Program-made: the position numbers and the translations under genes
Shown: positions 49,420 through 62,433 of the stretch, piece after piece
Position numbering within the stretch: position 1 is the stretch's first letter
Layout of the letters: each line of letters starts with the position of its first letter
Notes under the pieces: model-generated
Databases searched by the model: none
Told to the model about the DNA's origin: nothing
Seen by the model: the letters and a program-made list of their open reading frames with translations, nothing else
Origin: Elusimicrobiota bacterium
GTDB lineage: Bacteria; Elusimicrobiota; Elusimicrobia; UBA1565; UBA9628
Assembly (NCBI GenBank): GCA_016212855.1
Contig: JACRDP010000018.1
Location: 1-64,000 of the forward strand
Length of the DNA stretch: 64,000 nucleotides
Direction of reading: 5' to 3'

Positions 49420-49487
49420 CCCGCACCGGTCGAAAGGCCGGCGCGAACAATTTAATGCCTGACACTCAGACCGCCTCTGGAGGCCGC

Positions 49488-50357
49488 ATGAATCAAGCGA
49501 AAACTCTTCTCGTCCTGGCCCTCGCGCTCATCGCCGCGCCGTCGCGCTCGTTGGCCGGCTCCGAAGCGCTCGCCGCCGGCGCGGACGCGGCCTTTGCGGG
49601 AGCTGCTTTCCATACACCCTTGCCTAAGATGGTCCTCGCTGAGGGTTGGACGATTCACAAGCCCATCGCCCAGGCGTCTTTGCTCCCGTCGACGAACTGG
49701 TTCAGCCTCGCGGTGCTCGCGCAGGTCGGCGGCGAGCCAATCGGCGCGACCGCCGCGACCGAGGTCGCCGCGATCGATCTCGCGGCGCTCCTTAATAAGC
49801 AGTTGAAGAGCCAGCTCAAGTACAACCTGGGCGGCAAGGACGTCTGGGTCAGCGGCGCCTTCGACCGTCAGCAGAACGCCTACGTCTCCATCCTCGTGGA
49901 CGGCTCCGACGCGGTTTTCTACAACGTGAAGGGCCTGCTCGACAAGGAAGAGACGGTCAGCGCGGGGGCGAACAAGTACACCCTGCGCCTTTCCCCGAAC
50001 GTCATCAACCAGATGAAGAGCGAGATCGTGCTCGAGAACAAGGCCAACGAGGACGACGTGGTCCGCATCACGCTGAAGAAGATGCTCGACGCGGTCGGCG
50101 CGACCGGCGACACGGCGAAGGTCGGCGGCCAGACCTACAAAGTCTTCTACACCGACGACATCAAGAACGGCCGGGTCGACAAGACCGCCAAGACCATCTC
50201 CTTCATCCTGACCGAGCCGAACGGCGAGATCCATGTGGTCCTGATCCCGGCCGAGCTCGTCCCGTCGGACAAGATCGCCGTGTTCAAGATGTTTAAGGAC
50301 GCGCGCGTCGGCATGACTCAGAAGGACGGCAAGCTGAAGGTTTACGAGAACCCCTGA
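49488..50357 (+). CDS. Secreted protein of unknown function
   Basis: 289 residues with a signal peptide (NQAKTLLVLALALIAAPSRSLAG). No family recognised. The mature protein mixes helices with strands (YKVFYTDDIKNGRVDKTAKTISFILTEP). It contains no Cys. The ATG at 49488 is selected because of GGAGG 4 nt upstream; an in-frame ATG at 49455 would spoil the signal peptide. A strong promoter, ribosome-binding site and terminator suggest an abundant protein. Confidence 0.7.
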   Translation: MNQAKTLLVLALALIAAPSRSLAGSEALAAGADAAFAGAAFHTPLPKMVLAEGWTIHKPIAQASLLPSTNWFSLAVLAQVGGEPIGATAATEVAAIDLAALLNKQLKSQLKYNLGGKDVWVSGAFDRQQNAYVSILVDGSDAVFYNVKGLLDKEETVSAGANKYTLRLSPNVINQMKSEIVLENKANEDDVVRITLKKMLDAVGATGDTAKVGGQTYKVFYTDDIKNGRVDKTAKTISFILTEPNGEIHVVLIPAELVPSDKIAVFKMFKDARVGMTQKDGKLKVYENP

Positions 50358-50412: not shown

Positions 50413-50552
50413 TCTGAGCGGGGCTCAAAGTGCCAGGCTTTTAGACCTTAACGCTGAATCCTTCATAGTGGGCCATTTGTCGTTGGGGGGGTGGGACCTC
50501 GGGCCCATGCCCGGTTCCGGGGCGACTGCTACCATCCTGGAACGAGGTTCCA

Positions 50553-50711
50553 ATGAAGAAAAACGCTTATCCCAACGGCCGGAAGCACGGCATGCGCTCG
50601 AAGGCGACGGGCGAAAACCGGCTGAAGACCACCCTCACCTTCGAGCCTTCGGCTCAAGCCTACCACTGGACCACCGATCGCGGCCGCTCGCGGTTCGTCA
50701 TCAGGCATTGA
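50553..50711 (+). CDS. 52-residue basic protein coupled to the outer-membrane gene
   Basis: Short ORF starting MKKNAYPNGRKHGMRSKATG and ending TTDRGRSRFVIRH; strongly basic, unknown family. The ATG follows a small hairpin GGAAC-GAG-GTTCC (50539-50551) that presents GAGG in its loop. Its TGA (50709-50711) overlaps the TTG start of the next gene, an arrangement that suggests translational coupling. It may be a leader for the downstream gene or a genuine small protein. Confidence 0.5.
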   Translation: MKKNAYPNGRKHGMRSKATGENRLKTTLTFEPSAQAYHWTTDRGRSRFVIRH

Positions 50712-51820
50712 AGCTCGGCGCGGCCATCGCGGCCGTGCTCTTGATGTCGTCGGTTACGGCTCGGGCCGCCAATCCCAGCTTGTCCGACGACTTCACGAGC
50801 ATGTCGCAGTGGCTCAGTCATGAGATGGCGCAGGGCCTGGCGTTCAACGCCGGGTCCAATTTCGATCCTCCCCGGGAAGTGAAGGGCTGGGCGCTCCAGC
50901 CCGACATCTCCCTCGGTGTCGGCCGCATCCCCTTCAACAAGTCCGCGTTCCCGAACTTGACCGTCCAGGCGCTTCAGGAGCAGGGCGGCTCAAACATCTT
51001 CCCGAACGGAACGATGTTTCCGAACCTCGCGTTGCACTTGCGCATGGGCCTGCCCGGACGCCGCGACGCCTATTTCCGCTTCGCCGACGCGACCACGCCC
51101 CCGGGCTATAAAATCTCCCCGACGATGACCGCGCAGGTCCAGACCAACTCCTACGGCTTCGGCGCGCGTCAGCATTTTTTCGGCGAGGACGAATGGCCGG
51201 TGCTCACGCTCGGCGGCCACTACAACCACGTGCGCGGGCGCACGCGCCTCAAGGGCCTCTTCAACGTCGACATCGACAACAACTTCAAGGCGGACAGCGA
51301 GCTCAACGGCGAGATCGACTGGAACCTCAACAGCTTCGGCCTGACCGCCGTCGCCCACAAGAGCTACGACGCCTGGACGCCGTTTTTCGGCTTCGGCTAC
51401 AACTATGCGACCGGCTCGGTGCGCGCCAAACTCGAGCTCAAGTCCCGGACCTTCCTGATCTCCGACGTCACCGGTCAAGGCAGCGAGCACCCCGAGCAAA
51501 GCCAGGGCCGCTGGATCACGGGCGTGCAGTACGCGCGCCCGAGCTGGAGCGCGTTCTTCAACGCGGAGTTGAAGGCGCTCGGGCAGCTGCAGTACCGGAG
51601 CTGGATCGCGCAAATCGGTTTCGCGCTGCCGTACGAGATCGGGCGCGGGCCGCAGATCATTTACAAGAAACGGATTCCCGGCGCCGAGGCCGAGAAGAAG
51701 GAGTACTCGGCGCCGAAGAAGCTCGATGAAGACAAGCCCGCGCCGGAGCCGAAGATACGAAAGCGCTTGGAGCCGAAGAAGCCGGAGAGCGCGCAGCCGG
51801 ACATGATTTTCCTGCAATAG
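50708..51820 (+). CDS. Outer-membrane beta-barrel-like protein
   Basis: 370 residues from a TTG start, which gives a clean signal peptide (KLGAAIAAVLLMSSVTARA). The mature protein has alternating polar/hydrophobic strands with aromatic residues at the ends (PVLTLGGHYNHVRGRTRLKG, WTPFFGFGYNYATGSVRAKLELK, QYRSWIAQIGFALPYEIG), as in outer-membrane barrels. A Lys/Pro/Glu tail follows (about 320-370). The giant protease-glucanase gene begins directly after its stop, suggesting a joint role such as surface display or export; that is inference. Confidence 0.65.
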   Translation: MKLGAAIAAVLLMSSVTARAANPSLSDDFTSMSQWLSHEMAQGLAFNAGSNFDPPREVKGWALQPDISLGVGRIPFNKSAFPNLTVQALQEQGGSNIFPNGTMFPNLALHLRMGLPGRRDAYFRFADATTPPGYKISPTMTAQVQTNSYGFGARQHFFGEDEWPVLTLGGHYNHVRGRTRLKGLFNVDIDNNFKADSELNGEIDWNLNSFGLTAVAHKSYDAWTPFFGFGYNYATGSVRAKLELKSRTFLISDVTGQGSEHPEQSQGRWITGVQYARPSWSAFFNAELKALGQLQYRSWIAQIGFALPYEIGRGPQIIYKKRIPGAEAEKKEYSAPKKLDEDKPAPEPKIRKRLEPKKPESAQPDMIFLQ

Positions 51821-54800
51821 ATGAAACGATTCGTTTCCGTCGTGCTGACGTCCAGCCTGGTCCTCGCGTCCTGGGGCCCGGGCGCGGCGTCGTTGTCCGC
51901 ACAAACCATCACGGGCCGCTCTTCTTCCGTTTCGCTCGTTCCCCAGTTGAGCGTGGTGCCCGCGGGACCAGGCGCCGTGTTGGGTTCACCATCCGTTTTG
52001 CCGTTGTTGACGCCGTTGATCTCTCCGTCGTTGACGCCGTCGATCAGCCCGCTCGCGGCGCTCACCCCCGTCGCTGCGGCGCCAGCCGCGGCGACGCCGG
52101 CCGCCGCGATAGCGGCGGCCGCGGCTGCCGTTCCCTCGGCGATCGCGGCGGTCAAGCCCTCGGCTCCGAACGAAGCGTTCGGGAGCGCGGCGGCGCAGGA
52201 TTTCGCGGGCCGAATTACGGGCGAACGGCTTTTGAACGGCGACGGATTGGGCGGAGATGCCGTATCCATCGACGGCGCTGTCCCTGAATCTACGACGCAC
52301 CTTTCCGCGGCCTCGGTCGAGCACGACGTCAAGACAAGTCGTGAGCCTGCTCTACATCCCGCGCCGCCGACTACACCTGAAGGACAGAAACGCGGCGCGT
52401 TTTTCCCGCTGGTGCTCGCGGGTTTATCCGGATTACTGTGGGGAGGATTCGAGTTCGCCCGCTGGGGCGCCCATGCCTTGCAGACCGCGCAGTCCTCCGG
52501 TTTCACCGGTTCGACGGTCCTGACCGTCGCCGCGGTCAGCGCGGCGGTGCTTACGGGCGCATTTGTTCTTAACGCTGTTGTTGATACCGTCGTCTTCCTC
52601 GCCGCCGTCGCTCGCGGCCGGAATGTCACCAACGCCGATCTCCAAAAATTCCTTCGTGCCGAAGTTTTGGAAGGACGTCTGGACGGCAACGCCGCCGCGC
52701 TTGTCAAAGCGTATCGTCCCGACAACCGCTACAAAGACTTTACCTTCGCCTTCGCCTCCCGCGGCCAGATCTGGGTTCGCCCCGAACTCGCCGCGACGCC
52801 GTGGCTGCTGCGGATGGTCTTGCTTCACGAGCTTCACCACATGCGCGCCTCGGCGCCGCGGGGACCCCCGCGCGGCAAGATCTTCGGACTGCTCTCGACC
52901 GTCGTCTCCGAGGTGCGCGCGCGCGCGGCCGAGTTCAGGGGAACCGGCGCCCTCAAGAAGATCAAGGTCACCGGCCTCCAGCGCGCGCTCACCTTGACCC
53001 AGACGTCCCTGCGGCTCTCCCGTCCCTACGACGTGCTCGTGGTCAACCCTGATTCGAAAGAGCTCGAGGATCCCAAGCTGTACGACGGGCTGTCCGACGG
53101 CGCGGCCCGCGTGACGCCGCTCAAGGACGTCGATCCCCGCAAGGCCCTGACCGGAAACGAGCGCCGCTACCGGGCGATCGTGCTGGGCCGCGCGACGCGC
53201 GCCTTGCCCGAGCCGAACAGCGCGGACCACAAGAAGCTGGAGAGCGTGCTCCAGCAGCTCGACAGCCTGCACGTGCTCGCGACCCGCCTCATCGTCCGCG
53301 CCGACGCGTTCAAGGGCACCACCAGCGTCGGCGCCTGGACCGATCTCGTCGATCGCGCGCAGCGCCTCAAGGAGAACGGCTCCAAGCGGGCGGTTCAGGC
53401 TTTCGAGGGCGAGGTGCGCAAGCTCTGGCGCTCGATCGCCTCCCAGCGCCTCAAGGGCGTGGGCGTCACCGAGCTCATGGACGGTTTGTACGGCAACCTG
53501 CGGGACCGCGGCTTCGCCTTCCTGTCCTTCGGTCCGGACGACCCCGGCGTCGTGTCCTGGGAGAAGCTGCTGCGCTACTGGGAGTCGGCCGATGGCGGCC
53601 AGTTCAAGATCACGCGGGTCGACCTCGAGGACGGCGGCCACCTGCTGATCCTGAGAAAAGTCGAGGCCCGCGTCGGTCTGTGGCTGCGGCCGATTCAGGG
53701 CGGACGCATCAAGGACTCGGTGCCGAACGCTTCGTTTACGGAGGAGGGCCGCGCGACGGCGCGCAAATCCCTCGAGGACGCGGGCTTCGGCAAGCAGCTC
53801 GAGCTGTTCGAGAAGATGGAGGTCAACGTGCGCCACGTGTTCGGCGCCGACGTGGGCCGCCAAGAGATCTACGTGACCGTGCCGCGGCGCAACAAGACGG
53901 CGATCATGAAGTACGTGAGCGCGAACGCCGAGATCCTGGACTCGCAGTCGAACTTCGAAACCCATTTGATGGACTCGGCCGAGCTCCAGGGCGTGAAGCC
54001 GGTTTGGAAGGCCGGGGTCACCGGCGCGGCGGGCTCGATCCTGTGGATCGACACCGGCGCGGACTCGACGCACGCCGACTTCGGCGGGCGTCTGGACGTC
54101 GTCGACATGGTCGACGAGGGGACCGAGGACTGGATCGGGCACGGCACGCACGTCGCCGGCATCTCGATCTCCGACAACCAGGGCTTTCTGGGTATGGCGC
54201 CGCAGGCGAAGGGCACGATGGCGAAGGTGTTCTCCCGCGACCAGCCCGGCGCGTCGGATGGCGAGATCATGGGCTCGGCCGCGATCGCGCTGAAGAAGGG
54301 AGTGGACGTGATCAGCCTGAGCCTGGGCTCGCGCGGCTCCTCGGCCGACAACCTGGCCGAGTTCTTCTCGCAGCTCACGAAGCAGAAGAACGCCGCGGGC
54401 GAGCATCCCATCGTCACCGCGAGCGCCGGCAACTCCGGCCCGTTCGACCGCACGTTGAGCCAACCCGCCGCCGGCGTCGAGGTCATCGCGGTCGCCGCCG
54501 CCGCCAAGAGCAAGGAAGACGGGATTGCGGAGATCGCCTTCTACAGCTCGGTCGGGCCCGACATCGACCGCCGCTACGCGGTCAAGCGCTTCCGCTTCAA
54601 GCCCGACATCACCGGCATCGGCGGCGACGTGACGACCTCGCCCGGCTCGAGCAACGTCTACAAGGACGGCGTCTATTCCGCGAAGTCGAAGGACGCCCAG
54701 CGGTCCGCTTCAGATCTCGAAGACGGCAAGCACACGGGCATGTCCGGCACCTCGATGTCGAACCCGTCTTTGGGCGGCATCGAGGTTCTTCTCAAGGTCG

Positions 54801-57800
54801 CGCTGCGTGGAGCCGGGGCGCTGACTCCGTTCATCTCGGAGAACCTGGCGTTCGCGGTCAAGGCCGTGCTCCAGCGCACCTCGAAGGACATGGGCGTGCC
54901 GGTGTGGTTCCAGGGCGGCGGCTTCGTCGACGCCTGGGAGGCGTTCAAGCTCATCCAGGCGTCGGGCACGCGCATGGTCGGCAACGGCCTGCGCGGGATG
55001 TGGGCGCGGCTGACCTCCAAGCCAGCCGCGCCGGAGGGCGAAGCGGCGTGGGCCTGGCTCGAGCGCCTGAAGGCGGTGCAGGACGCCGAGGACCGGGCGT
55101 TCAGCGCGGCCGAGCTCGCCAAGAGCGAGATGCAGGCTCACCAGGAGGGGGAATCCGTCGATGAATCCTCCGAGGAGCCGGCCGACAAATCGGCCGCCGG
55201 CAACGCCGTGCAGGCCGAGGTGCAGAAGCGCTTCAACGCCGCGCGCGACGCCGAGCTGCCGGCGCTGATCGCCGCGCTCAAAGACGACGTCTGGCTCGTG
55301 CGCATGCGCGCCGCCGCCGTCCTGATGAACTTGAAGTCCCCCGCGTCCGCCGCCGCGCTCGCCGAGGCCGGGCTCAATGACTCCGAGCCGCGCGTGCGCC
55401 AGATGGCCTTCCTGGCCCTCGCCGAAATTCCGACGCATGCCGTCGACGCGCTGCTGCAGAAGGCGGCGGCCAACGAGTCCTGGGACATCGGCGTCTACGC
55501 GGCCTACGCGCTCGTCCGGCGCGGCGACCGCGCCGCGATCGCCCGCATCGTGAAGGAGACCGCGAACGCCGACAAGCGGGCGCGCTTCACCTCGACCTGG
55601 CTGCTCGGCCAGATCGGAGCGTCCGCGACCGCCGCCGAGGCCGAGGCGCTCTCGGCGCGCGTGCGCGACCGCGCTGAGCGCGGCAATATCCGGCATTTGG
55701 CCTCCGCCGCGCTTTCCAACCTCGCCGACGCCGCGCCCGAGGCGATCAGCGACCGCGTCGTGACCGACCTGCTCGACGCGGCCGGACCGGAGAACCTCGC
55801 GCTGACGCGCACGATCCAGAAGATTTTCCCCGTCGCCGTGCGCAGCAAGGCCTTCATCGCGCGCCTGCGCGCCGACCCGCTCAAGCCGATCGTGACGGAT
55901 TTCGTCGTCAAGAACCGCGAGGCGATCGGCAAGCCCGGCGCGCTGAGCGAGCTGGTGCAGCTGCTCGCCCGCGCCGCGGGCGTGCCGCTCGACGCGCCGA
56001 CCCCGCCGATGGACGGCTCCGGCACGGGCATCGCGGGCGTCGACGAGGCGATGGGCCCGGTGGACCTGTTCGCGGTTCCGCCGCTGAACGAGGGCGCGCT
56101 CGACGACGCGACGGCGAAGCGCTTCGAGACGTCGGTCAAGGCGACTTTGACGGCGTCACGCGGGTTGTGGCTGTCGGTGCCGGAGCACAAGCTCTACGCG
56201 CTGACGATCGCGCTCGAGCACCGCGGCTGGACCGTGCGGCGCTCGCTGCCGTACTATCCGCTCTCCAACTCCCCGGCCGAACCCGGCGGGCTGACGGTCG
56301 AGCTCGGCGACGGCACGATGAGCGAGGACGTGCCTCCGGGCGCGGACCTGTCTCTGGTGCGCGTGCGCGCCTCGGCCGGCGTCTCCGAGGTGCGCGTGAT
56401 GGCCGCGCTCGAGCACATCGCCGCCGCCGCGAAGGACAAGGGTCCCGTCCTGATCTCGCTGACGATGGGCGCGCCGACGTCGCGTCGCACGCCTCTGTCG
56501 ATGCTCATCGACCGGCTGGTCGCGTCGGGCATCGGCGTCGTGGTCGGCGCCGGCAACGCGGGACCTAAGGCCGGCACCGTGGCCGCGCCCGGCGACGCGG
56601 CTTTGGCCGTCGTCGTCGCCGCCGCCAGCCGCGAGGGCCTGCAGTTCTACTCCTCGCGCGGAACGCCCGAGACGCCGCGCCTGTCCTGGACCGATCTCGT
56701 CGACGACCTGAAGCCGGGCGAGGCGCTCGCCAAAGCGGCCGTCGCCGCGGCGGACGCCGTGCTCGGAACGCCCGCGCCGGCGGCCCCGGCTCCTAAGATA
56801 CTGGGCACGGCGGCCGCGGCGGAGCGCACCGCCGCGAAGCTGGCCGTGCTCTCCCGCGCGCTCGCCGAAGGCATGAAGGCGGCGGGCCGGCAGTTGCCCG
56901 ACGGCTGGTTCCCGTACCTGGCGTCCTTGGTCAAGCGCTCGGCCACGCCGATGCCGGCCTATCAGCCCCACGAAGTCGGCGCGGGCTTGTTCGACGCCGC
57001 CGACGGCGCGCTCGAGCTTCTGCGCACCCGCCTCCTCGATCTCGAGGCGTTGACGCGCGACGCGAAGGCCCTCGCCGACGAGGCGCGCGCTCGCGTCGCT
57101 CCCGCGGCGGCGCCGATCGCTGCCCGGCCGAGCCTCCTGCGCCGAGCGATCCGCGCGGTTCTCGGCGCCTTCATCGCCGTCTCGCCGGCGCACGCTCCGG
57201 CGAAGGCCCTCACGGACGGAATCCGCCCCACGCCGTCGATCTCGGAGGACGGCGTCCCGGGTTTGCCGTGGTGGAAGGACGCGTCGGCGACTCGTTCCGC
57301 CGTGACCGTGCCGTTGTTCGCCCTGCGGCCTAAAAAAAAAGACGCTGACCCCGGAATAGGCAAGTACTCCGGCTTGGGCCGCTACTACCGCGAGGAACTC
57401 GCGCCCGAGGGGACCGACGCGGTGCTTCTCCTGCCTCACTTCGCCGCGCTCGGCGAAAGCCCGTACGCTCCGGTCAGCCTGTACGCGCTCAACGAAGATC
57501 AGATCGATTGGGCTCTGGTCGAAGAGTCCGCCGCCGATCCTCGTTTGAGCGCTCCGTCGCAAAGCGTCGATTACGCGTCGCTGCGCGCGCGAGAGAGCGC
57601 GATCGCCCGCGAGGCCTACGCGCGCTTTTTGAATTCCGACGGTCCACGCCGGGCCGAATTCTCCGCTTGGTCGGCGAAAAACGAAAACTGGCTCGGAGAA
57701 TACGCCGAGTTTATGGCGCTGTCCGCGTTGATCGGCAAGCCTGCACTCGACTGGACTCCCCCCGATCAGGGCGCCGCTCGGGCAGATCCGAAATTCGCCG

Positions 57801-59884
57801 AGCTGGTCTCAATACGCCGCTGGTCGCAGTGGCTCGCGTACGGGCAGTTTCGTGACGCGGTGGACGAAGTGCATGCCGCGGGCGGCAAGCTCCTGTTCGA
57901 CATCCCGATGTTCCGCGCCAAGAACGGCGTCGACGCGTGGAAGCGTCCGGAACTGTTCGCCGACCTGCGTACCCGAAATCCCGGCATCGTCAACGCCTGG
58001 GTCCACGAGGACTGGAAGGACCTGGCGCTGTGGCGCTGGTCCGAGCTCAAGAAGGACGGCTACGCGGCCGCGCTCGATCCCTACCGTTATTGGCTCGCTT
58101 TCGGCTTCGACGGCGCGCGCGCCGACGCTTTGCACTTCGCCTACAAGTTCGGCAACGGCCAGCTGGCCAGCGGCGACGAGCCCGGCGATCCGTACGTCGC
58201 GGCGCTGGGCGCGGTGCTGAGCGCGCGCTCCGCGTTTCCGCTCGCCGAAGCGTTCGAGGGCAAGGACGCCGACGCGCGGCGCCACGGCTTCGTCACGGTC
58301 GGCGGCGACTGGAAAAAGGTGAGCTCGCACGACGATCCCCGCACGCCCGATTTCATCGGGCGTCTTTTTACGGCGCGCCGCGAACCGTCCTCCGGCGCGG
58401 CGTCGAAATTCGTCGCGTACACGCTCGGCGATCAGTGGCGAGATCCCGTGCCCGTGAAGGACATGAAGAACGGCGTCTCGCGCTGGCGCTACCGCATTCC
58501 GCTGCCTTCCGACGCGGATTACGCCGGGCGCGTCCGCGCCGACGCGCGGCCCCAGCTGCGGGCGCTTAAGGCGATTGTGGACGGCGACGTGTGGGGCGCG
58601 GCCGAATCGGTCCGCGCCGCGTTTGGAAGCGCCGCCGACGCCTTCGTCAAGCGCGACGGCGATTCCGTGCAGATATGGGCCGCGAGCATGGACTGGTTCC
58701 TCGAGGAGTGGGGCCGCGACACTTTTATCTCTCTGCCGGGGCTCCTATTGTCCACCGGCCGTTTCAACGACGCGAAATCCGTTCTGCGCCGCTTCGCCGC
58801 GTTCGAGAAAGACGGCCTGATCCCGAACCGTATTCCCGACAACGGCGAGCCCGAGTACAACACCGCCGACGCGCCGATGTGGTACGTGCAGGCGCTCAAG
58901 AGCTACGCCGAAGCCTCGAACGATTGGGCGTTCGTCGACGAGATGGCACCGGTCGTGCGCCGAATCGTCGCCGGCTATGAACACGGCGCGAGCTACCGCC
59001 GCTACGGCCGCTGGAACACCATCAAGATGGACTCCGACGGCCTGGTCGTCACGCCTTCGCAGGCGACCTGGATGGACGCCGACCCCGAGGGCCGCGACCG
59101 GCCGGTGACCCCGCGCAACGGCAAGACGGTCGAGATCAACGCGCTGTGGTACGCCAACCTCCGTTTCCTGGCCGCGCTCGAGGCGCGCGCCGGACACCCG
59201 GAGACCGCGGCGGCGCGCAATGAACTTGCCGGCAAGGTGAAGGACAGCTTCAACTCGAAGTTCTGGTTCGTCAGCGAGGACAACCGCCGCGCCTGGGGCG
59301 GCGCCGGCGGGGCCTTGCGCGACGTGATCGAGGGCGACCCGCACGGCGAGGCGATCCGCCCCAACATGCTGTTCGCGATCAGCCGCGGCGGCGACCTGCT
59401 GAGCCCCGAGCGCCGGCGCGACGTCGTGCTCGCCGCGACGCGCGACCTGCTCACCCGCATGGGCCCGCGCACCTTGTCGCCGCGCGACAGCGGCTACCGC
59501 GCGACGTACGACACGTCCAAACCTCCGCTCGAGAAGGACCAGGCCTACCATCAGGGCACGGTGTGGCCGTGGCTGATGGGCGCTTACGCCGAGGCTTTGG
59601 CTCAGGTGCGGCGCGACATGGGCTGGGACGACGTCCGGATCGCGGCCGAGACGCGCGCGCTGGTCACGCCGTTGGTCACGGCCCTGGTGTCGCGCCCTGA
59701 GGGTTCGCTGTCCGAGGTGTACGACGGCGGGGCGAGCGACGCCGGCCTCGCGAATTTCTCGCTCGACGATCCCGAGGGCCTCGCGCCGCTGTTCAAGCGC
59801 GCCGGCCCCGCGCAGAATCCGGGCGGCACCCGCTCGCAGGCGTGGAGCGTCGCCGAGATTCTTAGGCTACTGGCCCGCGAATAA
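51821..59884 (+). CDS. Giant secreted fusion: zincin-like + subtilase + HEAT + GH77-like + GH133 debranching domains
   Basis: 2687 residues in one frame. Signal peptide (1-28). A zinc motif HELHH at 336-340. A complete subtilase (S8): Asp744 in WIDTGAD, His774 in GHGTHVAGI, Asn871 in ASAGNSGP, Ser978 in SGTSMSNPSLG. HEAT-like repeats at about 1147-1390. A partial second subtilase-like region (about 1430-1640; GAGNAGP, no GTSM Ser). From about 1827 a GH77/GH13-like domain begins with VTVPLFALRP and GIGKYSGLG, with candidate nucleophile Asp2102 (GARADALH), acid Glu2143 (LAEAFEG) and His2170-Asp2171. Residues 2285-2687 are an amylo-1,6-glucosidase (GH133): WGRDTFISLPGLLL, EYNTADAPMWYV, EINALWY, HQGTVWPWLMGAYAEA. 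An A9 run (57332-57340) lies in the GH77 N-terminus. Confidence 0.85.
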   Translation: MKRFVSVVLTSSLVLASWGPGAASLSAQTITGRSSSVSLVPQLSVVPAGPGAVLGSPSVLPLLTPLISPSLTPSISPLAALTPVAAAPAAATPAAAIAAAAAAVPSAIAAVKPSAPNEAFGSAAAQDFAGRITGERLLNGDGLGGDAVSIDGAVPESTTHLSAASVEHDVKTSREPALHPAPPTTPEGQKRGAFFPLVLAGLSGLLWGGFEFARWGAHALQTAQSSGFTGSTVLTVAAVSAAVLTGAFVLNAVVDTVVFLAAVARGRNVTNADLQKFLRAEVLEGRLDGNAAALVKAYRPDNRYKDFTFAFASRGQIWVRPELAATPWLLRMVLLHELHHMRASAPRGPPRGKIFGLLSTVVSEVRARAAEFRGTGALKKIKVTGLQRALTLTQTSLRLSRPYDVLVVNPDSKELEDPKLYDGLSDGAARVTPLKDVDPRKALTGNERRYRAIVLGRATRALPEPNSADHKKLESVLQQLDSLHVLATRLIVRADAFKGTTSVGAWTDLVDRAQRLKENGSKRAVQAFEGEVRKLWRSIASQRLKGVGVTELMDGLYGNLRDRGFAFLSFGPDDPGVVSWEKLLRYWESADGGQFKITRVDLEDGGHLLILRKVEARVGLWLRPIQGGRIKDSVPNASFTEEGRATARKSLEDAGFGKQLELFEKMEVNVRHVFGADVGRQEIYVTVPRRNKTAIMKYVSANAEILDSQSNFETHLMDSAELQGVKPVWKAGVTGAAGSILWIDTGADSTHADFGGRLDVVDMVDEGTEDWIGHGTHVAGISISDNQGFLGMAPQAKGTMAKVFSRDQPGASDGEIMGSAAIALKKGVDVISLSLGSRGSSADNLAEFFSQLTKQKNAAGEHPIVTASAGNSGPFDRTLSQPAAGVEVIAVAAAAKSKEDGIAEIAFYSSVGPDIDRRYAVKRFRFKPDITGIGGDVTTSPGSSNVYKDGVYSAKSKDAQRSASDLEDGKHTGMSGTSMSNPSLGGIEVLLKVALRGAGALTPFISENLAFAVKAVLQRTSKDMGVPVWFQGGGFVDAWEAFKLIQASGTRMVGNGLRGMWARLTSKPAAPEGEAAWAWLERLKAVQDAEDRAFSAAELAKSEMQAHQEGESVDESSEEPADKSAAGNAVQAEVQKRFNAARDAELPALIAALKDDVWLVRMRAAAVLMNLKSPASAAALAEAGLNDSEPRVRQMAFLALAEIPTHAVDALLQKAAANESWDIGVYAAYALVRRGDRAAIARIVKETANADKRARFTSTWLLGQIGASATAAEAEALSARVRDRAERGNIRHLASAALSNLADAAPEAISDRVVTDLLDAAGPENLALTRTIQKIFPVAVRSKAFIARLRADPLKPIVTDFVVKNREAIGKPGALSELVQLLARAAGVPLDAPTPPMDGSGTGIAGVDEAMGPVDLFAVPPLNEGALDDATAKRFETSVKATLTASRGLWLSVPEHKLYALTIALEHRGWTVRRSLPYYPLSNSPAEPGGLTVELGDGTMSEDVPPGADLSLVRVRASAGVSEVRVMAALEHIAAAAKDKGPVLISLTMGAPTSRRTPLSMLIDRLVASGIGVVVGAGNAGPKAGTVAAPGDAALAVVVAAASREGLQFYSSRGTPETPRLSWTDLVDDLKPGEALAKAAVAAADAVLGTPAPAAPAPKILGTAAAAERTAAKLAVLSRALAEGMKAAGRQLPDGWFPYLASLVKRSATPMPAYQPHEVGAGLFDAADGALELLRTRLLDLEALTRDAKALADEARARVAPAAAPIAARPSLLRRAIRAVLGAFIAVSPAHAPAKALTDGIRPTPSISEDGVPGLPWWKDASATRSAVTVPLFALRPKKKDADPGIGKYSGLGRYYREELAPEGTDAVLLLPHFAALGESPYAPVSLYALNEDQIDWALVEESAADPRLSAPSQSVDYASLRARESAIAREAYARFLNSDGPRRAEFSAWSAKNENWLGEYAEFMALSALIGKPALDWTPPDQGAARADPKFAELVSIRRWSQWLAYGQFRDAVDEVHAAGGKLLFDIPMFRAKNGVDAWKRPELFADLRTRNPGIVNAWVHEDWKDLALWRWSELKKDGYAAALDPYRYWLAFGFDGARADALHFAYKFGNGQLASGDEPGDPYVAALGAVLSARSAFPLAEAFEGKDADARRHGFVTVGGDWKKVSSHDDPRTPDFIGRLFTARREPSSGAASKFVAYTLGDQWRDPVPVKDMKNGVSRWRYRIPLPSDADYAGRVRADARPQLRALKAIVDGDVWGAAESVRAAFGSAADAFVKRDGDSVQIWAASMDWFLEEWGRDTFISLPGLLLSTGRFNDAKSVLRRFAAFEKDGLIPNRIPDNGEPEYNTADAPMWYVQALKSYAEASNDWAFVDEMAPVVRRIVAGYEHGASYRRYGRWNTIKMDSDGLVVTPSQATWMDADPEGRDRPVTPRNGKTVEINALWYANLRFLAALEARAGHPETAAARNELAGKVKDSFNSKFWFVSEDNRRAWGGAGGALRDVIEGDPHGEAIRPNMLFAISRGGDLLSPERRRDVVLAATRDLLTRMGPRTLSPRDSGYRATYDTSKPPLEKDQAYHQGTVWPWLMGAYAEALAQVRRDMGWDDVRIAAETRALVTPLVTALVSRPEGSLSEVYDGGASDAGLANFSLDDPEGLAPLFKRAGPAQNPGGTRSQAWSVAEILRLLARE
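57332..57340 (+). other. A9 slippery tract inside the giant gene
   Basis: Nine A encode Lys1838-1840 at the start of the GH77-like domain. Gain of one A leads to a stop after three codons (TGA), loss of one to a stop after about six codons (TAG). Slippage in RNA polymerase or ribosome would release the protease half alone. Confidence 0.5.
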
Positions 59885-60934: not shown

Positions 60935-60950
60935 AATGATAGAATGGCCC

Positions 60951-61613
60951 ATGTTTTTGCGGCTCATTTTCATCCTCGCTGGATGCGTCACTGTCTCTTC
61001 GGCGGTTGAGCCCGCGGCGTTGTTCGACTCTCACGGCTGCCGCTCCTGCCACAAGATCGGCGAGCGCGGGGGGAACTCCGGGCCCGATCTGACCATGGTC
61101 GGGCATCGCCGCCCGCGCGCGTGGATCGAGAAGTGGCTCGCGAGTCCGCGCGCTTACAAGCATGACACGAAGATGCCCGAGCAGGGCCTTCCCGTCGCCG
61201 ACCGCGCCGCGCTGGCGAATTTTCTTTCGGAACTGAAGGGCCAGGCCTGGGGCGACGATCCGCCGTGGATCGATCACGGCGATCACGCGCCCGACGGGCG
61301 CAGGATCTACGTGCGCGCGGGCTGCATCGCGTGCCATGGCCCGGCCGGGCGGGGAGGCCATCCGAATCCTGGCGGGCGCGGCGGCTGGATTCCGGCCCTG
61401 CCCCCGCTTCTTGCCACCTATAAGAAGGACGAGCTGATCTCTAAGCTCAAGCGCGGCGCGAAGGCCGATGCCGAGCCCGGCCGCGTCGCCGAGGTGGATA
61501 TGCCCGGCTGGGACAAGATTCTCAGCGCCGCCGATCTCGAAGCGCTCGTCGACTATCTCCTGACGTTGGCGTCGGCCGGGCCCAAGGACGGAAACCCCCA
61601 GGACGACTTTTAA
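60951..61613 (+). CDS. Di-heme cytochrome c lipoprotein
   Basis: 220 residues. Short lipoprotein-type signal FLRLIFILAGC (lipobox LAGC). Two class I heme sites: Cys30/Cys33-His34 in HGCRSCHKIG with candidate Met75 in KMPEQG, and Cys125/Cys128-His129 in AGCIACHGPAG. The next gene encodes a PuuD-like membrane domain; in typical PuuD a cytochrome c domain is fused to it, so here the parts seem split. It would carry electrons at the outer face of the inner membrane. I chose the ATG at 60951 because TAGAAT (60940-60945) lies 5 nt before it; an ATG at 60936 is possible. Confidence 0.82.
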   Translation: MFLRLIFILAGCVTVSSAVEPAALFDSHGCRSCHKIGERGGNSGPDLTMVGHRRPRAWIEKWLASPRAYKHDTKMPEQGLPVADRAALANFLSELKGQAWGDDPPWIDHGDHAPDGRRIYVRAGCIACHGPAGRGGHPNPGGRGGWIPALPPLLATYKKDELISKLKRGAKADAEPGRVAEVDMPGWDKILSAADLEALVDYLLTLASAGPKDGNPQDDF

Positions 61614-61617
61614 AATT

Positions 61618-62433
61618 ATGAGCGACCTTCAAGAGTGGCTGAGCCTGATCTTACGCTGGATGCACGCGATCACCGGGATCATGTGGATCGGCCAGACCTA
61701 CCTGTTCAACTGGATGGAGAAGGCCTTCGAGCCGCCGCGCGACGCGAAGGCCAAGCCGAACATCTCCGGCGAGCTGTGGATGGTGCACGGCGGCGGCTTC
61801 TACCTCGTCGAGAAGCAGAAGTGGCCGGAGATCATGCCGCGCGTCCTGCACTGGTTCAAGTGGGAGGCGATGCTGACCTGGGTGTCGGGCTTTCTGCTCC
61901 TGTCGTTGATGTACTGGGGCGGAGCGTCGCTTCTCGACTACGGTTCCGAGCTGCCGCGCTGGAAGGGAATCCTGATCTCGTCCGGCGCGCTCGTCGGCGC
62001 GGTCGGCGCCTATCGCTTGATCTCCCGGTCGCCGCTCGGACGTTCCGAAAGCGCGGTCGGGGTCGCGTGGTACGTGTTTCTCGTCGCGTCGGGCGCCGCT
62101 TTGCTCAACGTCCTGAGCGACCGCGCGGCCTACCTCCACGTCGGCGCGATGATGGGCACGGTCATGATGACCAACGTCTGGATGACGATCATTCCCAACC
62201 AGAAAAAGATCATGGCCATCTCCGAGGCGAACGGCGCGCCGCGCCCCGAGCTCGCGCTCGAGGCCAAGCGCTGCTCGAAGCACAATACTCTGATGTCGAT
62301 GCCCCTGCTGTTCCTGATGCTGAGCAACCATTATCCGTCGATCACCTTCGGCGGACCGCACCCGCTCCTTCTGCTCGCGGTCCTGCTGCCGCTGGGCGCC
62401 TACGCCGCTCATCTGATCCGCGAGCACACGTGA
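61618..62433 (+). CDS. PuuD-like (Urate_ox_N) membrane protein
   Basis: 271 residues with seven or eight membrane helices. LILRWMHAITGIMWIGQTYLFNW, WKWEAMLTW-like FKWEAMLTWVSG and HVGAMMGTVMMTNVWMTIIPNQKKI match the membrane domain of urate hydroxylase PuuD (DUF989). The C-terminal cytochrome c domain of PuuD is missing and is replaced by the preceding di-heme gene. Many relatives occur in genomes without purine catabolism, so urate oxidation is not assured. Conserved His in RWMHA and HVGAMM may bind heme. It overlaps the next gene (GTGA). Confidence 0.78.
   Translation: MSDLQEWLSLILRWMHAITGIMWIGQTYLFNWMEKAFEPPRDAKAKPNISGELWMVHGGGFYLVEKQKWPEIMPRVLHWFKWEAMLTWVSGFLLLSLMYWGGASLLDYGSELPRWKGILISSGALVGAVGAYRLISRSPLGRSESAVGVAWYVFLVASGAALLNVLSDRAAYLHVGAMMGTVMMTNVWMTIIPNQKKIMAISEANGAPRPELALEAKRCSKHNTLMSMPLLFLMLSNHYPSITFGGPHPLLLLAVLLPLGAYAAHLIREHT

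Follow-up and report, generated by a model that had tools for sequence, protein, structure and literature searches.

Debranching enzymes that pair a 4-alpha-glucanotransferase with an amylo-1,6-glucosidase are known chiefly as cytoplasmic glycogen enzymes. Two papers treat them within glycogen metabolism (PMC11046441, PMC4837477). The eukaryotic glycogen debranching enzyme (GDE; Candida glabrata GDE, PDB 5d06) carries transferase and amylo-1,6-glucosidase in one chain as GH13_25 and GH133 domains, and the GH77 transferases include MalQ/amylomaltase (Thermus, PDB 1cwy). Among proteases, the CspBA-type tandem subtilase/pseudo-subtilase likewise combines an active and an inactive S8 domain in one chain. 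Searches of open-licence full texts with a few sets of terms returned no description of a protease combined with a debranching enzyme, and none of glycogen debranching in Elusimicrobia.

A preliminary description of the window, the 64,000-nucleotide stretch of Elusimicrobiota DNA analysed here, proposed that a single gene joins protease domains, HEAT repeats and a two-part debranching enzyme. One open frame of 2687 codons indeed runs from a signal peptide to GH133, and the domains listed were recovered: the Pfam matches of the window protein to S8, HEAT_2, GH77 and GDE_C/GH133 all exceed the curated cut-offs, and a second S8 region is real though decayed. The order is signal peptide, Ala/Pro-rich linker, hydrophobic hairpin, HExxH region, S8, HEAT, decayed S8, GH77 and GH133. 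The features of the locus are as follows.

50693..51820, +, DUF6588-like gene, probable outer-membrane beta-barrel with signal peptide (PF20230 8.5e-5, below cut-off)
51821..59884, +, whole fusion gene, 2687 aa (single open frame)
51821..51904, +, putative signal peptide MKRFVSVVLTSSLVLASWGPGAASLSAQ (judged by eye; equivalent N-termini in relatives)
52403..52606, +, two hydrophobic segments, residues ~195-214 and ~236-254, possible membrane hairpin (hydropathy scan)
52613..53020, +, HExxH region with H336, E337 and H340; candidate third ligand E364 (alignments)
53021..53965, +, region of unknown fold with a C-terminal beta-alpha-beta part (AF2 model of residues 265-715)
54047..54901, +, S8 subtilase domain a (S8a), residues 743-1027, D744/H774/S978 (PF00082 5e-35; motifs in 26 relatives)
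55247..55732, +, HEAT repeats, residues ~1143-1304 (PF13646, PF02985; alphaRep chains in a PDB sequence search)
56168..56890, +, S8 domain b (S8b), residues ~1450-1690, triad lost (alignment to the intact S8b of family f2)
57131..57205, +, junction with signal-peptide-like stretch SLLRRAIRAVLGAFIAVSPAHA, probable fusion scar (home-made score)
57269..58510, +, GH77-type 4-alpha-glucanotransferase, D2102/E2143/D2171 (PF02446 6.5e-28; invariant columns; fold match)
58634..59734, +, GH133 amylo-alpha-1,6-glucosidase, D2419/E2632 (PF06202 1.4e-91; alignment to C. glabrata GDE)

One segment of the window protein lies above the hydropathy threshold where relatives usually have two, and the first hydrophobic segment also scored in the scan for signal-peptide-like stretches. 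The same genome encodes a 1105-aa secreted protein (L191:550-3864) with 40% identity to fusion residues 2-227 and no Pfam match, which has in common with the fusion the N-terminal signal peptide and the Ala/Pro linker; this linker seems to be common to several exported proteins of the organism.

Fifty-eight relatives were searched with the GH77-GH133 (GH) half, and architectures were read from the fetched loci. The close relatives fall among MAGs that carry the label Elusimicrobia or Elusimicrobiota or, in a few cases, simply 'bacterium'. The in-frame fusion is complete, at 2644-2868 aa, in G000, G003, G007, G012, G015, G016, G025 and G029; the G017 frame leaves the contig start, yet HEAT, S8b, GH77 and GH133 are joined. 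Nine genomes of the order, eight besides that of the window, carry the fusion, and this recurrence means that neither chance nor a local frameshift accounts for it; an assembly artefact is ruled out by the same nine in-frame copies. Relatives in which the halves are always separate genes would have refuted the single-gene proposal, and this is not what the relatives show. The protease is present in 37 of the 56 genomes of the order and the GH half in 23, one copy being partial; among 199 sampled genomes of the phylum, none outside this order had the protease at the threshold used. The protease half is an independent module, more widespread than the GH half.

Other arrangements occur within the order. 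In four genomes a separate GH77-GH133 gene stands downstream of the protease gene, at a distance of at most about 100 bases (G010, G065), ~1 kb (G028) or 2.7 kb (G062), and in family f2 (G036, G038, G044) the two are not on the same contig. The stand-alone GH77-GH133 genes start with typical signal peptides of their own, in keeping with the view that this pair, of debranching-enzyme type, is probably exported. Three genomes (G006, G008, G018) have the protease without the GH half, and tblastn revealed no GH77-GH133 remnants downstream of their protease genes. As the GH half can be absent from these three or split off in G010, covalent linkage is dispensable. The architecture in G037 is contig-limited, with overlapping frames, and contig ends truncate the loci in G001, G005, G009 and G013. 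In G011, a single-contig genome, the parts of a fusion homologue (L039) lie in three frames, reflecting indels or decay.

The HExxH region contains HELHH at residues 336-340, and alignment shows HExxH to be kept in 24 of 26 relatives. The zincin-like motif noted earlier is therefore present and conserved, but profile searches and Foldseek gave this region no Pfam family, no NCBIfam family and no zincin fold match, so that zincin is a motif-level call. The AF2 model of residues 265-715 (pLDDT 75) gave as its best Foldseek results weak methyltransferase-like matches (TMq ~0.2), which were set aside as uninformative. The beta-alpha-beta end of the region of unknown fold may be a subtilase propeptide.

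The S8 triad of Asp744, His774 and Ser978 was correctly identified, as motif alignment with 26 relatives confirms. Together with an oxyanion Asn in an SAGN motif, it places S8a in family S8 by sequence as a predicted protease. The catalytic Asp is missing from S8a in G021, G027 and G033, all of them fused to a GH13 domain (see below), and S8a is intact in the window. The HEAT_2 match (PF13646, residues 1143-1201, 2.7e-10) scores 40.8 bits against a cut-off of 27.7, identifying HEAT repeats between the two S8 domains. The second, partial S8 region at ~1450-1690 is genuine and has lost the catalytic Asp, His and Ser; the triad is absent in the window lineage, where the domain is accordingly a pseudo-protease. 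In family f2, S8b keeps Asp, His, Asn and Ser, the f2 sequence SGTSMAAPH aligning against LGTAAAAERT of the window, and matches a mycosin model at 6e-22.

In the C-terminal half, PF02446 matches residues 1831-2083 with 98.3 bits (cut-off 25), which assigns the domain to GH77 over profile positions 2-261 of 465 only. Because the match ends before both E2143 and D2171, these two residues are assigned by motif and conservation. D2102, E2143 and D2171 are conserved in relatives, and G029 alters the H next to D2171 to A (SSADD for SSHDD). The GH133 domain is identified by PF06202 (GDE_C/GH133) at residues 2272-2638, with 307.6 bits against a cut-off of 21. Its D2419 aligns with D1241 of C. glabrata GDE, a catalytic residue of that enzyme (PMC4837477), and E2632 is kept in 19 of 19 aligned rows. 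These matches and conserved residues uphold the proposed GH77 and GH133 domains with their candidate catalytic residues.

An AF2 model of the GH half (pLDDT 84, pTM 0.83) matched Thermus amylomaltases and C. glabrata GDE in Foldseek, the amylomaltase matches reaching a TM-score by target of up to 0.64. The protein misses the MalQ equivalog cut-offs (TIGR00217, 32.6 bits against 205.65; PRK14508 series, 75.5 against 556) and the whole-protein cut-offs for glycogen debranching enzymes (TIGR01531, 120.8 bits against 1399.55; TIGR01561, 208.4 against 364.15). Classical GDE_N + GDE_C proteins coexist with the exported GH77-GH133 form in G011 (L052) and G025 (L053). A 2234-aa ORF in G050 (L051:3903-10604) combines a GH133 domain with a weak ChaN/Tiki-like match below cut-off.

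The junction between the halves retains a possible trace of their history. By a home-made score the stretch at 57131..57205 is the top-scoring internal signal-peptide-like stretch of the window protein; its counterpart is top-ranked in five of the eight other fusions and third in G012, and none was eligible in G029 and G017. Since the score is home-made, a fusion scar is supported rather than proven. The protease of G006, which lacks the GH half, ends inside the corresponding stretch (GLLRRALRAAQKPSP), suggesting secondary loss of that half. In the GH tree, the split copy of G010 is sister to the fused G017 with full support and nested among fused copies (100/99), which implies either fission or repeated fusion.

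These observations bear on whether the link does anything at all. In a neutral fusion, the stop codon and intergenic region between two secreted neighbours would have been lost, leaving independent halves and a link without function; the signal-peptide-like remnant at most junctions, the adjacent but separate genes in G010, G028, G062 and G065, the nested split copy of G010 and the protease genes without a GH half in G006, G008 and G018 are all consistent with such a course. However, the fusions persist across several genera, the active sites are conserved in both enzymes and a GH13 domain has also been fused to the same protease, and we consider a functionless link rather unlikely, if far from negligible.

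The linker between the halves is less conserved (55-62% identity in close relatives) than the flanking domains (~72-86%). With an active-looking S8a upstream of it and a signal-like stretch at the junction, the subtilase might cut the linker, or signal peptidase the junction, to free a soluble debranching enzyme, as had been suggested in part from the outset. Inspection by eye found no conserved cleavage motif in the linker, G021, G027 and G033 lack the S8a Asp and are still fused to GH13, and the stand-alone secreted GH77-GH133 proteins show that the enzyme can exist without any release step; self-release is in our judgement improbable.

In six genomes (G020, G021, G027, G033, G034, G039) the C-terminus of the same protease is formed by a GH13 alpha-amylase-like domain, the Pfam score of G021 lying slightly below cut-off. 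The catalytic DxxPNH, RxD, E and D are invariant in an alignment of these six fused and two unfused copies, and GH13 relatives are encoded by separate genes too, among others in G006 and G018, where the protease is present and GH77-GH133 absent. No C-terminal enzymes beyond GH13 and GH77-GH133 were seen on the protease in relatives. Two different alpha-glucanases have thus become attached to one protease, from which it follows that the covalent link probably serves co-localisation and maturation of the glucanase in the envelope; the recurrence with two types of alpha-glucanase suggests that coupling glucanase and protease outside the cytoplasm is useful. In genus g11 (G028, G062, G065) the GH13 domain is a remnant from which ~200 barrel-core residues are gone, and a secreted GH77-GH133 gene lies downstream. 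The protease tree places G034, with its intact GH13, as sister to these three genomes (support 95/78), on a long branch. Displacement of GH13 by GH77-GH133 is the simplest reading that these data suggest; with the root unfixed, we infer the direction.

One protease platform with two alternative alpha-glucanases also raises the prospect of a joint attack on a protein-associated glucan, such as a coated glycogen or starch granule or a glycoprotein, in which the protease would strip protein and the GH half debranch. HEAT and pseudo-subtilase folds can bind protein, and those of the platform could do so here. In family f2, however, protease and GH half are unlinked, and we rate joint attack as marginally less probable still than self-release. 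In a bolder version, related lineages would have fitted an envelope subtilase platform with GH13 and then with GH77-GH133 instead. The resulting exported enzyme would combine proteolysis with debranching to act on protein-associated alpha-glucan, as a counterpart in the cell envelope to the glycogen debranching enzyme of eukaryotes; this we regard as a real possibility, though a doubtful one.

Immediately 5′ of the fusion lies the DUF6588-like gene (ORF 50468-51820, start codon uncertain), whose TAG stop is followed immediately by the ATG of the fusion. In 22 relative loci, among them loci that lack GH77-GH133, the protease has a homologue of this gene (37-76% identity) next to it, which makes the gene a partner of the protease and not of the glucanase. 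The partner is probably a beta-barrel; a PDB profile search gave no match. Further 5′, a 300-aa putative secreted protein without a family match (49455-50357, +) has conserved counterparts close to the protease in nine relative loci. On the 3′ side, a cytochrome c gene and then a urate-oxidase-N (membrane) gene (60936-62433, +) form a pair that is also near the protease in G006, G007, G008 and G011.

No glucan-use genes flank the fusion in the window, its neighbours encoding SMC, a phosphoesterase, cytochrome c and the urate-oxidase-N protein. In G038, the only genome examined in this respect, the stand-alone secreted GH77-GH133 gene lies directly 5′ of genes for a solute-binding protein (SBP_bac_1), two permeases (BPD_transp_1) and an ABC ATPase (ABC_tran), and two GH13 amylase genes are located upstream of it. 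This importer linkage is the best evidence, although indirect, that the secreted GH77-GH133 enzyme serves glucan uptake. The earlier suggestion of surface glucan use thus draws indirect support from G038 and none from the flanks of the fusion itself.

We favour, at somewhat better than even confidence, alpha-glucan debranching in the envelope on a subtilase platform, with the link serving co-localisation and maturation of the glucanase. Reading export, anchoring, substrate and activity from sequence features, we envisage a fusion protein that is exported and probably anchored in the inner membrane. Its N-terminal half would be a widespread envelope protease platform, comprising the HExxH region, an active subtilase, HEAT repeats and a pseudo-subtilase, encoded together with a probable outer-membrane barrel. 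The GH77 domain would transfer a maltooligosaccharide off a branch and GH133 would hydrolyse the alpha-1,6 glucose left at the branch, opening a branched polymer resembling glycogen or starch, located in the periplasm or on the cell surface, for uptake. Products would then pass to sugar importers and a cytoplasmic alpha-glucan phosphorylase, for which the genome has a short match of 719 aa. With this locus one can test whether it matters to uncultured Elusimicrobiota that proteolysis and alpha-glucan debranching are physically coupled, and the natural series of fused, adjacent, unlinked, replaced and lost enzymes offers a model for the fusion of secreted genes and for enzyme displacement.

Among Omnitrophota, GH77-GH133 proteins contain the same pair over its full length at 43-47% identity, embedded in other giant ORFs; no S8 domain was found in those scanned. 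Two of these ORFs are apparent alpha-glucan-metabolism polyproteins: one of at least 4876 aa (L171:3-14630) with GH116, GH13 and a GT5 starch-synthase domain, and one of 6720 aa (L163:2531-22690) with sigma-70 region 4 repeats, glycogen phosphorylase and GT5. The tandem S8 domains give weak matches to CspC and CspBA models and differ from CspBA in having HEAT repeats between them, no known spore context and an S8b that is intact in f2. MalQ/amylomaltase provides the best fold matches and the GH77 Pfam match to the GH half, whereas the fusion falls short of the equivalog cut-off, covers the Pfam profile only in part and has its GH77 joined to GH133. C. glabrata GDE shares the aligned GH133 catalytic Asp and a whole-model Foldseek match, and the fusion differs from the eukaryotic enzyme in that its transferase is of GH77 type rather than GH13_25 and in being bacterial, apparently exported and mounted on a protease platform. 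The pairing of GH77 with GH133 is already known; what appears to be new is its predicted export and the way it is joined to a subtilase platform that bears GH13 in other relatives.
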